Assembly (NCBI RefSeq): GCF_013466605.1
Contig: NZ_CP059162.1
Location: forward strand, 1,054,001 to 1,118,000
Reading direction: 5' to 3'
Length of the DNA: 64,000 nt
DNA from: Pseudomonas chlororaphis subsp. aurantiaca
GTDB lineage: Bacteria > Pseudomonadota > Gammaproteobacteria > Pseudomonadales > Pseudomonadaceae
Below the pieces are notes generated by a model. The model was not told where the DNA came from and did not search any database. It worked only from the letters and a program-made list of their open reading frames with translations. Made by a program: the position numbers and the translations under genes. Positions 15,651-21,001 of this stretch are shown in pieces. Each line of letters opens with the position of its first letter. Positions within the stretch are counted from its first letter, which is position 1.

Positions 15651-16022
15651 TCAGCGGCTGGCCGCGAGGGTGATCGACACCGACTCGGCGAAACGCAGGG
15701 CGTGGGGTTTGTCGACCTCGACCTCGGCGTACAGCACCGATTCGTTGGCCATGATCAGATCGAGGATTTCCTGGGTCAGGCGCTCGAGCAGGGCAAAGCG
15801 GTTGCCCTCCACATGGGCGATGATCGCCTTGGTGATGGTGCGGTAGTTCAGCGCATGGTCGATGTCGTTGTCGCGCACGGCTTCCTGCGCGGCATACAGG
15901 ATGGTCAGGTTGATCAGCACATCCTGCTTGTTGAGGATCTCGTCCTCGTTGATTCCGATGAAGGTCCGCAGGCACAGGTCCTTGACCCGGATGCGAGCCA
16001 TTCCTGGCTGAAGTTGTGGCAT
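15651..16022 (-). CDS. folX: Dihydroneopterin triphosphate 2'-epimerase
   Basis: 123 residues starting [17 protein letters not shown] tunnelling-fold protein of the FolB/FolX type; the [18 protein letters not shown] segment and the Glu in [19 protein letters not shown] form the pterin pocket. FolX converts dihydroneopterin triphosphate to the monapterin form. Its place directly after folE and folM indicates FolX rather than FolB (aldolase). Two bases separate its start from the folE stop codon. Confidence 0.9.
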
Positions 16023-16024
16023 TG

Positions 16025-16585
16025 CTACTTGCTCCGTCCGATCAATTGCAGGAATTCCTGGCGCGTGGTGCTCGACTCGCGAAAGGCGCCGAGCATCACC
16101 GAGGTGTGCATGGTCGAGTTCTGCTTCTCGACGCCGCGCATCATCATGCACATGTGCTGGGCTTCGATGACCACCGCGACGCCGGCGGCCTGGGTCACCC
16201 GCTGCACTGCGTCGGCGATTTCCCGCGTGAGGTTTTCCTGGATCTGCAGGCGGCGGGCGAACATGTCGACGATCCGGGCGATCTTCGACAGGCCCAGCAC
16301 CTTGCCGGTGGGAATATAAGCCACATGGGCCTTGCCGATGAAGGGCAGCAGGTGATGTTCGCACAGGGAATAGAGTTCGATGTCGGCGACTATGACCATT
16401 TCATCGTTATCGGAGGCGAACAGCGCGCCATTGACCACCTCGTCCACCGACTGGCTGTAGCCATGACACAGGTACTGCATGGCCTTGGCCGCGCGTTGTG
16501 GGGTGTCGAGCAGGCCTTCGCGCTCGGGGTCTTCGCCGAGACCCTTGAGGATCTCGCGGTAATGCTGGGGCAGGGAAAGCGTCAT
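16025..16585 (-). CDS. folE: GTP cyclohydrolase I (FolE)
   Basis: 186 residues, type IA enzyme. Zinc ligands are visible as C75 and H78 in LCEHHLLPF and C146 in [31 protein letters not shown] is the family signature. It forms dihydroneopterin triphosphate from GTP. GAGGACGTTGC precedes the ATG. Being between folM and folX, it probably supplies the tetrahydromonapterin branch; Pseudomonas usually has another folE copy for folate elsewhere. Confidence 0.94.
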
Positions 16586-16606: not shown

Positions 16607-17317
16607 TTACTTGAGGTGCCGCCCGCCGTTGACGGTCAGGGTAGTGCCGGTGACATAAGGGTTGTCGAGCAGATAACGCAGGCTCTGGTAGATCACTTCG
16701 CAACCGGGCTCGATGCCCAGGGCGGACTTGGCCAGGGCCTTGGCGCGGTAGGCCGCGTCGTCGTCGGGATTGAACATTAACAGAGCCGGGGCGATGCCGT
16801 TGACCTTGATCGTCGGGGCATATTTCGCCGCGAAGGACAGGGTCAGGCTGTCGAGGCCGGCCTTGGTGGCGCAATAGGCGATGTGCTTGCTGCTGCCGCG
16901 GCGGGTGACGTCGTCGCCGATGTGCACGATGTCGGCGGGGCTTGAGCATCTCAGCAGGTCGGCGCAATGCAGGTTGATCAGGTAGGGCGCGAGCATGTGC
17001 ACGCTGAACATGTCGACGAAGGCCGCGCTTTCCTGGCCGGGTGTTTCTTCCAGCCATTGCGAGGCGTTGTGCACGATCGCCCGCAGGCTGTCGGTGTGCT
17101 CGTGCAATTGGCTGATGAAGGCCTGGATCCCGGCCTCGCTGGAGAAGTCGGCGAACAGGGCAATCGCGCCACGCTCACGCAAGGCCTGCACGCCCGGGCG
17201 TTCGGTGCGGTAGCTGATGATCACCCGATGACCGTCTTCCAGCAGGCGCAACGCGCAATGCAGGCCGACACGCTGGCCGGCGCCGGTGATCAGGATCGGG
17301 GCAGGGGAAGTAGTCAT
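16607..17317 (-). CDS. folM: Dihydromonapterin reductase
   Basis: 236 residues from the ATG at 17317 (MTTSPAPILI). SDR fold: TGAGQRVG at 11-18 binds NADPH, HNAS follows, and the catalytic pair is Y148 and K152 in AYCATKAG. The TGAGQR (rather than TGAxxGIG) motif is typical of the FolM/pteridine reductase group. It reduces dihydromonapterin to tetrahydromonapterin, which in Pseudomonas is the cofactor of phenylalanine hydroxylase. First gene of the folM-folE-folX-DUF1244-HopJ operon. Confidence 0.92.
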   Translation of the reverse strand: MTTSPAPILITGAGQRVGLHCALRLLEDGHRVIISYRTERPGVQALRERGAIALFADFSSEAGIQAFISQLHEHTDSLRAIVHNASQWLEETPGQESAAFVDMFSVHMLAPYLINLHCADLLRCSSPADIVHIGDDVTRRGSSKHIAYCATKAGLDSLTLSFAAKYAPTIKVNGIAPALLMFNPDDDAAYRAKALAKSALGIEPGCEVIYQSLRYLLDNPYVTGTTLTVNGGRHLK

Positions 17318-17386
17318 GAACGGCTCGCGTCGCAGGTAGAGCAGAACTATACCAGCGCCGGGCGGGGTTCGCCCAAACCGCTGCCG

Positions 17387-17479: not shown

Positions 17480-18052
17480 CTACACGTGGCTCTGTGGGGA
17501 AGGGGTTGTTGGCAGCGGACGGGCCGGCGTGCTGTGCAGCCACCCGGACAACAGGCGGGTGGACAGCGGAATGAACCAGTAGACCATCAGCGGCGTCAGG
17601 GCCAGGGTGCTGACGAGCACCCGCGGTACCAGGCCGAGTTCGCCCAGCAGCGGGCCGAGGATGAAGTTGAAGATCAGCGACACCGGGAAGAAGGCCAGCC
17701 AGATGGCCACCGCCTGCTTCCAGCGGGGTGGACGCTGGCCGGTCGCGCCGAACCAGCCGTCTATGCCGCTGACCCGGTGTTCATGGGGATGGGCGAACAG
17801 GTCGCTGCCGCGGGCCAGCCAGGCCGTGCGCGAGGCGGAGTGCTCCCAGACGTGCAGGGTCTGCTCGTCGGCGAAGCGGAAGATGATCTGGAATTCGTCA
17901 TCGTCGGGCGGCGGGGCGAGCACGCCGGAGCCGAGATAGCCGGGGAAGTCGGTGGCCAATTGTTCGCCTTCGCGCAGCCAGGCGATCAGGTCCTGGTAAC
18001 GGCCATCGGCGACACGCCGGGCGACCATCAGGGTAACGGGTGAGGTAGACAT
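17480..18052 (-). CDS. Antibiotic biosynthesis monooxygenase-like domain with two C-terminal membrane helices
   Basis: 190 residues from the ATG at 18052 (GGAG eight bases upstream). Residues about 5-100 are an ABM-type ferredoxin-like fold (VTLMVARRVADGRYQDLIAWL, then FQIIFRFADEQTLHVWEHS). Two hydrophobic segments follow at about 118-145 and 150-172. ABM domains occur in small oxygenases and in non-enzymatic stress proteins; the anchor suggests action at the inner membrane. It is divergent from the MerR/LitR-like gene across 213 bases, which makes it a candidate target of that regulator. Confidence 0.75.
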   Translation of the reverse strand: MSTSPVTLMVARRVADGRYQDLIAWLREGEQLATDFPGYLGSGVLAPPPDDDEFQIIFRFADEQTLHVWEHSASRTAWLARGSDLFAHPHEHRVSGIDGWFGATGQRPPRWKQAVAIWLAFFPVSLIFNFILGPLLGELGLVPRVLVSTLALTPLMVYWFIPLSTRLLSGWLHSTPARPLPTTPSPQSHV

Positions 18053-18199
18053 TATGTATCTCCGTAAAACCAATGCGTTGCCTGGGTAAGGCAGTACGCC
18101 GGACGCAGCTCCGGGGTGTTGGGCTGCGTCTTGGAAGCAAGCAAGGATTATTCCTGATTGTGACAAATACACCAGAGGCAGCGGTCGCTTTGCCCTGTG

Positions 18200-18253
18200 T
18201 TGAAGAACTGTCACCGATGGGGAGTAGAATGGCCGTCACTTTATCCATCGGTG
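18200..18253 (+). promoter_or_regulatory. Putative promoter and operator of the MerR/LitR-like gene
   Basis: TTGAAG (18200-18205) and TAGAAT (18225-18230) are separated by 19 bases, a spacing typical of MerR-family promoters. CACCGATGG (18212-18220) lies in the spacer and its exact inverse CCATCGGTG lies at 18245-18253. By-eye assignment. Confidence 0.4.
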
Positions 18254-18265
18254 TTTTCTACCCAG

Positions 18266-19225
18266 ATGCCCGTCATTACTGAACTTGCCCACCCGACACA
18301 GCCCCTCGACCAGCCCTCGCAGGACGATCTGTTTCCGATCCGGGAAGTTTCACGGCTCACGGGGATCAACCCGGTGACCCTGCGGGCCTGGGAGCGTCGT
18401 TATGGACTGATCCAGCCGACACGCACCGAAAGTGGGCATCGTCTGTATTCGATGCACGATGTCGAGACAGTCCGCGAGATCCTCGGCTGGATCGATCGTG
18501 GTGTCGCGGTCAGTAAGGTTGGCAAGATCCTCGCCAAGACCCGGGCCGCCCGCGAGGCGCCACGGGCCATGCCGGGCGACAGCGAATCGGGCGATTACCT
18601 GCAGTGGCAGGGGCAACTCAAGCGGGCGGTTGGCGAATTCGACGAGCCGTACCTGGAGCGATTGTACGGCCAGATCTTCTCCAGCTATTCGCTGTCGGTG
18701 GTGTTCCAGGACATCCTCATGCCGTTCTGGCGGCAGCTGGCGCAGCACCAGGAACCTTACGGCCACACCAGCGAATGGCTGTTCTTCGATCAATTCCTGC
18801 GTTCGCGGATCTCCCAGCGCCTGCTGTTGCAGCGCGGCAGCCAGCCGCGCCCGGTGCTGCTGGCGGCGCTTGCCGGGCAATGCCGGGAGCTGGAGTTGCT
18901 GGTGGCGGCGCTGATGCTGGGCAGTGCTGAAGTGGAAGTGCGGGTGCTGGCGCTGGGGCAGCCGTTCGACGAGTTGACCCTGGTCTGCGAGAAGATCAAA
19001 CCCCAGGCGCTGGTGCTGTTTTCCAATCACGCCCCGGTACCGGAACTGCCTCGGCGCTTGAACCGCCTGGCGCTGACCCTGGAGTGTCCGCTGATGCTGG
19101 CGGGGGATGTCGCCGAGCTGGCCCAGGACAGCCTGAGCGCTTCGCCGGTGGGCTGTCTGGGGAGTGACGGACGTTTGATGATGCAGCGCTTGCGGCAGTT
19201 TCTCAGCGGTACGCTCGATACCTGA
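18266..19225 (+). CDS. MerR-family regulator, LitR/CarH-like without cobalamin motif (class II)
   Basis: 319 residues from ATG 18266 (MPVITELAHP). MerR winged helix at about 22-90 (DLFPIREVSRLTGINPVTLRAWERRYGL), then a helical bundle (about 115-190) and a Rossmann-like domain (about 195-290) as in CarH/LitR light sensors. The cobalamin DxHxxG motif is absent: the matching stretch AGQCRELE (203-210) has no histidine. That fits class II LitR, which does not bind B12 and which in P. putida works with a LOV protein. A short LOV gene lies about 0.7 kb downstream. The start has no obvious Shine-Dalgarno; GTG/TTG alternatives nearby are possible. Confidence 0.85.
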   Translation: MPVITELAHPTQPLDQPSQDDLFPIREVSRLTGINPVTLRAWERRYGLIQPTRTESGHRLYSMHDVETVREILGWIDRGVAVSKVGKILAKTRAAREAPRAMPGDSESGDYLQWQGQLKRAVGEFDEPYLERLYGQIFSSYSLSVVFQDILMPFWRQLAQHQEPYGHTSEWLFFDQFLRSRISQRLLLQRGSQPRPVLLAALAGQCRELELLVAALMLGSAEVEVRVLALGQPFDELTLVCEKIKPQALVLFSNHAPVPELPRRLNRLALTLECPLMLAGDVAELAQDSLSASPVGCLGSDGRLMMQRLRQFLSGTLDT

Positions 19226-19255
19226 GCTCATGCCCAGGCCACAAAAAACGCGGCT

Positions 19256-19861
19256 TCAGACGTGCAGGTTGGGGTGTGCCAGGCGGTGCTGCTGCAGGAT
19301 GAACTGGCGCAGGCGCTCGGTTTCATCCTTGTCGCTCTGGTTCAACCGATAGGCATAGAAGCCGGCGTCGGTCTGGCGTTCGAGGCGGCCACGCAGGGCG
19401 ATGCGCTCGTAGCCCGACGGGCTGAACCACTGGGCGAACTGCTTTTGCGCTTTGGCCCGGTTGCGGATCTCCAGCAACACACTGTTGAACGACACCTCAT
19501 GCACCCACAGCGCAGTGGGCTGCCCCTTGGCGTTTTCCAAGGCCACCGGCTCGTCCAGCGTCAGGCGCCATGGGCGGACCCTCGGCCCGTCCTCGAAGAT
19601 GCTCGGCACGCCCAGGCGCAGATGCAGCGCATGGAATTCGTCTTCCACTAGGTGCAGGGGAAAGGTCATCTGCTGGTTTTCAAAGTGCGCCTGGATGGTC
19701 ACTTGCTCGTTGGCCGCCAGGCGGGTGAGCAGGTCGCGGATCTGTGAGCCCCCGTTGACCAGCAGGCTCGAGTTCGCATCCCGCACGTTGAGTTGCGGGT
19801 TGTGCTGCATGGTCTGAATGAAGTCCAGTTCATCCTGGGTGAGGAGAGCGTCACGGCGCAT
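19256..19861 (-). CDS. Uncharacterised protein, possibly a degenerate PilZ/YcgR-like protein
   Basis: 201 residues from the ATG at 19861; the frame continues upstream only to a TTG. The N-terminal half (NSSLLVNGGSQIRDLLTRLAANEQVTIQAHF) resembles a YcgR-N/PilZN-type beta domain, and RPWRLTL followed by VHEVSFNSVLLEI resembles the RxxxR and D/NxSxxG arrangement of PilZ, but the key residues are not all kept. If the resemblance is real, c-di-GMP binding is doubtful. It sits between the MerR/LitR-like gene (convergent) and the LOV gene (same strand, 55 bases upstream), so it may be co-transcribed with LOV. Confidence 0.6.
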   Translation of the reverse strand: MRRDALLTQDELDFIQTMQHNPQLNVRDANSSLLVNGGSQIRDLLTRLAANEQVTIQAHFENQQMTFPLHLVEDEFHALHLRLGVPSIFEDGPRVRPWRLTLDEPVALENAKGQPTALWVHEVSFNSVLLEIRNRAKAQKQFAQWFSPSGYERIALRGRLERQTDAGFYAYRLNQSDKDETERLRQFILQQHRLAHPNLHV

Positions 19862-19916
19862 GATGTTGCTCGAAGGAGAAAGTGACAGAGTCAATGGTGA
19901 TTAAGCGTACTGACAA

Positions 19917-20390
19917 CTAATTCGATATCTTGTTAGAGCCGCTCGTCGCCTGGAAAACGGCGAGTTTCGCGCGGGTTTCGGCCAGCTCCTTTTCCACCTG
20001 CGCCAGCCGTTGCTGGGCCTTGACCTGGACCGTTACATCTTTCTGCACACCGACATAATAGGTTAGCTGATCGCTTTCGTTGAACACCGGGGTGATCGAC
20101 AGTTCGTTCCAGAAGTGACTGCCGTCCTTGCGGTAGTTGCGCAGCACCTGGCGGCAGGGCTGGCCGCTTTCCAAGGCCTGGCGAATCAGTGGGATTCCCG
20201 GCTGGTTGCGGTCGCCCGACTGGAGAAAACGGCAGTCCTGATACAGCACCTCGTCGGCGCTGTAGCCGGTGAGGCGTTCAAACGCCGGGTTCACGTAGAT
20301 GATGATGTTGTCTTCGCCTTCCTGTTCGGCAACGACAATCCCGTCGTTGGAGGCGTTGATCACCAGTTGCAGCAGGTGGGCGTTGATCAT
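19917..20390 (-). CDS. Short LOV (light-oxygen-voltage) blue-light photoreceptor
   Basis: 157 residues from the ATG at 20390 (MINAHLLQL), with GGAAG upstream; a longer frame to 20426 exists, but known Pseudomonas LOV proteins begin at this Met. PAS core with the flavin-binding motif YQDCRFLQ; C53 is the cysteine that forms the photoadduct with FMN. The FMN-contacting Asn and Gln are in YVNPAFE, FWNELSITPV and YVGVQKD. A C-terminal helix (about 120-157, heptad-like) should form the dimer interface. It has no output domain, so it must signal through a partner; the nearby LitR-like MerR protein is the obvious candidate. Confidence 0.93.
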   Translation of the reverse strand: MINAHLLQLVINASNDGIVVAEQEGEDNIIIYVNPAFERLTGYSADEVLYQDCRFLQSGDRNQPGIPLIRQALESGQPCRQVLRNYRKDGSHFWNELSITPVFNESDQLTYYVGVQKDVTVQVKAQQRLAQVEKELAETRAKLAVFQATSGSNKISN

Positions 20391-20545
20391 CGGGAGCTTC
20401 CGCAAGCGATCGGCAAGTGGCGGCAATTCTAAGACATGGCGCGAAGCTGTCCACTGGCCATTATGGGTAAATCGCGCTACAAGGCTGGATTTTATCGCGC
20501 AGCTGCTAATATCCCAGCCTTTTACTCAGCTTCAGGATCAGATTG

Positions 20546-21001
20546 ATGAAAGTCGCCATCCTTTCCGGCTCGGTGTACGGCACGGCTGAAGAAGTCGCCC
20601 GGCACGCCGCCAAACTCCTCAATGCCGCAGGTTTCGAGGCCTGGCACAACCCGCGCGCGACCCTGGCGGACGTCCAGGCGTTCGGCCCCGAGGCTTTCCT
20701 GGCCGTGACCTCGACCACCGGCATGGGTGAGCTGCCGGACAACCTGTTGCCGCTGTATTCAGCCATTCGCGATCAACTGCCGGCGGCCTGGCGCGGTTTG
20801 CCCGGCGCGGTGATCGGCCTGGGCGATTCGAGCTATGGCGACACCTTCTGTGGCGGTGGCGAGCAGATGCGCGAGCTGTTCGCCGAGTTGGGCGTGCGGG
20901 AAGTGCTGGAAATGCTGCGCCTGGACGCCAGCGAAAGCGTGACCCCGGAAACCGACGCCGAGCCTTGGCTGGCCGAGCTGATCAGCGCTCTGCGCGGCTG
21001 A
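20546..21001 (+). CDS. MioC-like flavodoxin
   Basis: 151 residues from ATG 20546, with AGGA about ten bases before it. SGSVYGTAEEVARHAA binds the FMN phosphate, TSTTGMGELPDN and GLGDSSYGDTFCGGG contact the isoalloxazine ring. A short-chain flavodoxin of the MioC/CysJ-domain type, a one- or two-electron carrier. Divergent from the LOV gene across 155 bases that must hold both promoters. Its 3' end overlaps the convergent LysR gene by 20 bases. Confidence 0.9.
   Translation: MKVAILSGSVYGTAEEVARHAAKLLNAAGFEAWHNPRATLADVQAFGPEAFLAVTSTTGMGELPDNLLPLYSAIRDQLPAAWRGLPGAVIGLGDSSYGDTFCGGGEQMRELFAELGVREVLEMLRLDASESVTPETDAEPWLAELISALRG

Follow-up and report, generated by a model that had tools for sequence, protein, structure and literature searches.

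When a transcriptional regulator and a blue-light photoreceptor are encoded within a few hundred base pairs of each other, it can be asked whether the two proteins act together and, if so, which genes they control. This question is raised by a block (positions 17480..21001) of a 64,000-nucleotide stretch of Pseudomonas chlororaphis subsp. aurantiaca (assembly GCF_013466605.1, contig NZ_CP059162.1, positions 1,054,001 to 1,118,000), hereafter called the window, in which a MerR-family protein of the LitR type lies close to a short LOV protein. The initial annotation had proposed that they form a sensor-regulator pair with the neighbouring genes as candidate targets or partners. Here, we identified the genes, compared gene order across genomes, recorded where LitR and LOV are present or absent together, and located the operators. 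We consider it very probable that the locus represents the class II LitR/short LOV light switch in the chlororaphis group, and that its likely outputs are at the locus of a second LitR gene, litR1, and not among the neighbours. The cluster is the same as pmlR2-PME15565-pmSB-LOV of P. mendocina, and the system is already known. What is new here is the joint change of LitR and LOV around a retained gene, the independence of the neighbours, the decay of the operator before folM, and the presence of an operator-bearing LitR1 in genomes that have no LOV.

The LitR and LOV proteins of the window

18266..19225, + strand: class II LitR (PmlR2 type), MerR-family repressor of 319 amino acids, with the helix-turn-helix (HTH) at residues 24-90
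19917..20390, - strand: short LOV blue-light photoreceptor of 157 amino acids, with photoactive Cys53 and no output domain (Pfam PAS_9, 81.1 bits)
20426..20453, - strand: sigma-70-like promoter TGGACA-16-TAGAAT before the LOV gene (consensus match only)

The LitR reading frame is taken from the ATG at 18266, from which its best relatives align; the list of open reading frames gives an alternative GTG at 18197 and a protein of 342 amino acids. The protein has the LitR/CarH layout, a MerR HTH followed by a helical bundle, and is similar to the Thermus structures 3whp and 5c8d. It had initially been described as a MerR regulator with this layout and without a cobalamin motif (AGQCRELE in its place), and both the Pfam MerR_1 match (54.8 bits) and the alignment with Thermus CarH/LitR (PDB 3whp) bear this out. 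The statement on the cobalamin motif is correct because the ligand stretch PPGERHEIG of 3whp aligns with LAGQCRELE, the His being replaced by Arg. Moreover, the E-E-H of the second cobalamin-ligand motif is S-E-W in the window LitR. The aligned CarH residues are those that we take to be the cobalamin-ligand sites; judged from these residues, the ligands are replaced and the His ligand of the CarH type is absent.

The NCBIfam CarH profile gave 86.1 bits with the window LitR (cut-off 400). Its B12-binding_2 match of 16.2 bits is under the cut-off of 23, while that of its paralogue LitR1, which shares 44 identities with residues 1-95 of the window LitR, is above it (26.1 bits); the Pfam scan listed a B12-binding domain for neither protein. 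The CarH-like layout and the weak B12-binding_2 match could mean that the window LitR is itself a cobalamin photoreceptor and that LOV belongs to a separate system. We regard this as most improbable, because both ligand motifs are replaced, LitR is present or absent together with LOV (see later in the text), and light induction in P. putida did not need B12, according to earlier work as told in PMC9758184.

The LOV protein had been described as carrying the photoactive C53 and no output domain within 0.7 kb of the MerR gene, and this also holds: the LitR and LOV stop codons are 692 bp apart, Cys53 sits in QDCRFLQ, and there is no second domain. The best PDB relatives include 7r5n (282.9 bits) and 3sw1 (193.4 bits), together with 7yx0, 7a6p and 5luv. 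The nearest named relatives are from Pseudomonas sp. NFIX28 (93%) and P. chlororaphis PCL1601 (92%), near-identical records possibly having been omitted. The photoactive Cys is kept in all 102 LOV proteins found at the locus (99 by pattern, 3 by reading). Sites resembling the sigma-70 promoter before the LOV gene number 2 in the stretch, against 0.6 expected. In total, the genome encodes two class II LitR proteins and one short LOV.

Joint presence and absence of LitR and LOV

The survey covered 119 Pseudomonas genomes including that of the window, searched with six proteins of the block, and 120 stretches from the other 118 genomes. The locus carries LitR and LOV together in 101 genomes and neither of them in 17; LOV is alone in one and LitR in none, i.e. 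the two genes are concordant in 118 of the 119 genomes. The pair lies in one stretch in 99 of the 101 and in two separate stretches in G069 and G118; in G034, also among the 101, LitR falls into two frames. Four of the 17 genomes without the pair at the locus (G024, G025, G065, G102) have a LOV elsewhere, each at most 0.3 kb from another LitR, and the remaining 13 gave no LOV match at E-values up to 1e-35. In G091 (L096), the sole genome whose locus holds LOV and lacks LitR, a single LitR match lies elsewhere (E 4e-32); the LOV there may serve a LitR1-type partner.

The genes around the pair are as follows:

19256..19861, - strand: protein with a predicted PilZ fold (fold comparison of its model), between LitR and LOV, at the position of PME15565
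17480..18052, - strand: ABM-domain protein of 190 amino acids (Pfam PF03992, 24.2 bits, cut-off 23.1), at the locus in 105 of 119 genomes
16607..17317, - strand: folM, dihydromonapterin reductase-type short-chain dehydrogenase/reductase, first gene of folM-folE-folX (Pfam adh_short, 87.3 bits; named by synteny)
16025..16585, - strand: folE, GTP cyclohydrolase I (Pfam, 256.7 bits)
15651..16019, - strand: folX-like gene, 122 amino acids (named by synteny, the gene order being as in P. mendocina)
20546..21001, + strand: MioC-like flavodoxin, a conserved gene flanking the cluster (NCBIfam PRK05723, 304.9 bits)

The ABM gene probably occupies the position of PME15555, and its product probably has two membrane helices, judged by eye. 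Scans of the window with Rfam (at the gathering threshold) and for tRNA genes gave no matches.

Most of these genes persist where the pair is missing: the 17 genomes without it keep folM and the flavodoxin in all cases, the PilZ-like gene in 16 and the ABM gene in 15. Reciprocally, of the 101 genomes with the pair, 3 lack the PilZ-like gene and 11 lack the ABM gene. The flavodoxin, matched in 119 of 119 genomes, is independent of the LitR-LOV pair; in one genome the copy next to the pair is split into two pieces (G108:C1:1091434-1091887).

On a quick tree built from the flavodoxin and PilZ-like proteins, LitR and LOV change 10 times each and the PilZ-like gene twice, in a count that does not separate gain from loss. 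For 8 independent pairs differing in LitR, averaged over 200 pairings, LOV follows in 7.9 (median sign-test p 0.008), and the PilZ-like gene is unchanged in a mean of 7.3 of the same contrasts. At the 12 pair-less loci that have the ABM, PilZ-like and flavodoxin genes in the usual order, the PilZ-like gene lies 156-225 bp from the ABM gene and 165-378 bp from the flavodoxin; at two further ones (L149, L152) the ABM gene is located elsewhere. Because the retained PilZ-like gene separates LitR from LOV, a single deletion cannot explain their joint absence, which can be produced by two deletions or by exchange of the whole block through recombination.

The proximity of LitR and LOV is beyond chance, since they are jointly present or absent in the 119 genomes. 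The initial annotation had pointed to synteny across Pseudomonas as a check on the pair, and the co-occurrence is indeed not random, the concordance in 118 of 119 genomes and the 8 tree contrasts being in agreement. LitR, a hypothetical gene and LOV form a conserved cluster. In a separate named search, which is not an independent sample because its loci are partly from the same species as the 119 genomes, 62 LOV loci were obtained, 52 of them in Pseudomonas; LitR is near LOV in all 52, and the PilZ-like gene is absent in 9. Order-wide, a LOV match was found in 38 of 293 genomes, and of the 23 loci fetched from outside the genus, the 1.5 kb flank includes a LitR at 12 and lacks one at 11. Close short LOVs without a flanking LitR are seen at the loci of family f36 (L202, L204, L207-L209 and L211-L214; 1.5 kb) and in Halomonas rhizosphaerae (L266; 5 kb flank). 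At L191 (G386, same family, other genus), a short LOV with no LitR in 1.5 kb is directly beside folX and folE.

In 96 of 119 genomes, a single stretch holds LitR, the PilZ-like gene and LOV, and the PilZ-like gene is on the same strand as LOV and 55 bp behind it. Together with the PilZ fold, this arrangement would suit a three-part module passing light to cyclic di-GMP (c-di-GMP) signalling or motility. The fold prediction comes from the comparison of a model and leaves out the N-terminal part to about residue 97, which is mostly of low confidence. The window protein itself was matched by neither Pfam nor NCBIfam, the Pfam PilZ cut-off (22.5 bits) is reached by 2 of 6 divergent members of its family, and the family profile matched no PDB chain by sequence, while the fold comparison did match. 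The c-di-GMP motifs of PilZ proteins are RxxxR and [D/N]xSxxG; both are incomplete in the window protein, which has RPWR and VSFNS at those positions of the family alignment. Moreover, the PilZ-like gene stays in 16 of 17 pair-less genomes, the pair occurs without it in 3 of 119 genomes and in 9 of the 52 named Pseudomonas loci, and it shows 2 tree changes against 10 for each of LitR and LOV. A three-part module is for these reasons very unlikely, and the joint changes around the retained gene point to LitR and LOV as the pair that works together.

Operators and likely outputs of the pair

To locate the outputs, the published operator TRTACA-N12-TGTAYA was searched in upstream stretches of up to 500 bp, with the reversed pattern and shuffles as controls. 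Among the genes of the cluster, it occurs upstream of folM in 22 of 118 loci with at most one mismatch and in 31 with at most two, where the reversed pattern gave none at either setting and shuffles gave 0.0 and 1.0, respectively. The form TGTACA-N12-GGTATA is exact in 22 of the 118. The upstream stretches of 105 ABM genes, 115 PilZ-like genes and 102 LOV genes contain no operator with at most one mismatch; with at most two, the numbers are 3, 1 and 0 (shuffles, 1.6, 0.8 and 1.8). The site in the window itself is reduced:

17348..17371, - strand: vestigial LitR operator in the folM promoter, with the GGTATA half kept and CGAACC in place of the TGTACA half

This site is off the folM form at 3 of 12 positions and off the PplR1 consensus at 4 of 12 (hand count), and the kept GGTATA half belongs to the likely -10 element TGGTATAGT. 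The full TGTACA-N12-TGTACA pattern is absent from the window folM, while the litR1 locus elsewhere in this genome has it. Over the whole window, 4 operator matches with at most two mismatches were obtained (expected 0.69; 1 of 100 shuffles had as many), none of them in the block, and they were set aside.

These data bear on a light switch whose main targets would be the adjoining genes, i.e. folM-folE-folX and the ABM, PilZ-like and flavodoxin genes. PMC9758184 describes the cluster as conserved in Pseudomonas, with TGTACA-N12-GGTATA 95 bp before folM; it reports that in P. mendocina light raises folM expression 2.4-2.5 fold and that of folE 1.6-3.3 fold, and that PmlR2 binds the folM promoter. 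The exact form of this site in 22 of 118 loci is in keeping with such targets. However, the window site keeps one half only, no operator with at most one mismatch precedes the ABM gene, the PilZ-like gene or LOV, and the adjoining genes mostly persist without the pair; we therefore hold adjoining main targets to be unlikely in this strain. Of the initial proposal, the sensor-regulator pair stands, with the P. mendocina biochemistry and the concordance in 118 of 119 genomes behind it, and the role of the neighbours as targets or partners mostly falls. The one neighbour with a published operator is folM, which had not been named then and has lost half of its site in the window.

The litR1 locus is a better candidate for the output. 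On the 6.95-Mb contig, the genes rudS-litR1-phrB are located at 5.70 Mb and the window LitR at 1.07 Mb. They are preceded by one exact operator and one with a single mismatch, whose starts are 50 bp apart (G000:C1:5704256-5704329; L031 9257-9330). The two operators flank TTGACT-N16-TATGAT, the same -35 and -10 as in the P6650 promoter of P. mendocina. An operator with at most one mismatch was found before rudS-litR1 in 37 of 38 relatives, the LitR1-type rows among the matches listed, which are those nearest to the window LitR; 36 are exact, and the reversed pattern gave 0 of 38. The likely conserved output is therefore the photolyase/tRNA s4U-desulfidase operon. Control of this kind over an operon of PhrB, LitR and RudS is also reported in PMC11417400, which calls class II LitR adenosyl-B12-dependent, contrary to PMC9758184.

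Another operator with one mismatch lies between a flavin adenine dinucleotide (FAD)-oxidoreductase gene and a divergent epimerase gene. Genome-wide, the search with at most one mismatch gave 38 rows for the operator (19 places, counted on both strands) and 26 for its reversed pattern, so that single sites outside promoters mean little. An exact operator at 3344436-3344459 (L032 5437-5460) lies some 0.1 kb upstream of the gene for a hybrid histidine kinase (CHASE3-GAF-kinase-3xREC). We do not claim it as a new target because it is poorly conserved: in the stretches of 29 relatives, 1 has a site within one mismatch, and 2 have sites with two mismatches at slightly displaced positions.

According to PMC9758184, the P. 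mendocina repressor PmlR2, encoded in a region with folM-folE-folX, is bound at its N-terminal HTH part by lit PmSB-LOV, which relieves the repression; Cys53 is needed. We infer that this biochemistry carries over to the strain studied here. In the dark, LitR would sit on TGTACA-N12-TGTACA operators over sigma-70 promoters and repress them. Blue light would form a flavin-Cys53 adduct in LOV, and the lit LOV would bind the HTH domain of LitR and take LitR off the DNA. The likely outputs would be rudS-litR1-phrB and the promoter between the FAD-oxidoreductase and epimerase genes.

Several observations weigh against this interpretation. No operator with at most two mismatches is present in the block. 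Three genomes (G015, G079, G089) have the pair but no second LitR at E-values up to 1e-20. Finally, the short LOV of family f36 has no LitR within the fetched 1.5 kb flank at 9 of 9 loci; since some families carry LOV without a flanking LitR, the partner of a LOV need not be local.

The litR1 circuit is also found where LOV is missing. Of the 13 genomes without LOV, G093 has no LitR match and the other 12 have exactly one each; 8 of the 12 were fetched as part of the 38 relatives above, and all 8 keep rudS-litR1 with an exact operator. The cobalamin His is at the CarH position in none of 39 aligned LitR1 proteins; many of them have a His three residues past it, where the alignment is uncertain. 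BLUF was found in none of 26 genomes tested, 13 of them LOV-less; E. coli was found among 14 control genomes. Tentatively, LitR1-type proteins might have an input other than LOV (self-sensing, a further photoreceptor or a stress signal), and the LOV-LitR2 pair might be an addition through which an older circuit gained its blue-light input. Alternatively, LitR1 would be a plain autorepressor in these genomes. LitR1 may have some B12 role, in view of its B12-binding_2 match above the cut-off here and the His near the CarH position, and the LOV-less genomes may hold a distant LOV with a match weaker than E 1e-35. In a literature search for which subscription journals were mostly out of reach, we noticed neither the joint loss of LitR and LOV nor the question of LitR1 without LOV.

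Altogether, the published biochemical model is extended to the chlororaphis group, and the repeated joint change around a retained gene argues for LitR and LOV as a working unit. The search for outputs is redirected from the adjoining genes to a photolyase/tRNA-desulfidase operon elsewhere in the genome, and the control of LitR1 in Pseudomonas without LOV becomes a testable question.

Comparison with known systems

The window LitR shares the layout of MerR HTH and helical bundle with the class I CarH/LitR proteins of Thermus (3whp, 5c8d). It differs from Thermus CarH in having no cobalamin-ligand residues and in receiving its light input, as we propose, from a second protein. The PilZ-like protein differs from YcgR, MrkH and other PilZ proteins in that RxxxR and D/NxSxxG are not complete. 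In P. putida KT2440, Sumi et al. 2020 are said to have described PplR1-3, PpSB1-LOV and PpSB2-LOV, TGTACA-type operators and a light-inducible phrB. Class II LitR paralogues, short LOVs, operators of the TGTACA type and phrB among the light-inducible genes are thus common ground, and the difference is one of number, with three LitR and two LOV in P. putida and two and one in this genome.

The closest system is PmlR2/PmSB-LOV of P. mendocina NBRC 14162, as described in PMC9758184. The region has the same genes, i.e. folX, folE, folM, a hypothetical gene, LitR, a second hypothetical gene and LOV. Likewise, its LitR of about 320 amino acids was judged unable to bind B12, its LOV carries Cys53, and the genome has one LOV and two class II LitR. 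The window differs from it in the loss of half of the folM operator and in the length of LOV, which has 157 amino acids here and 148 in P. mendocina.

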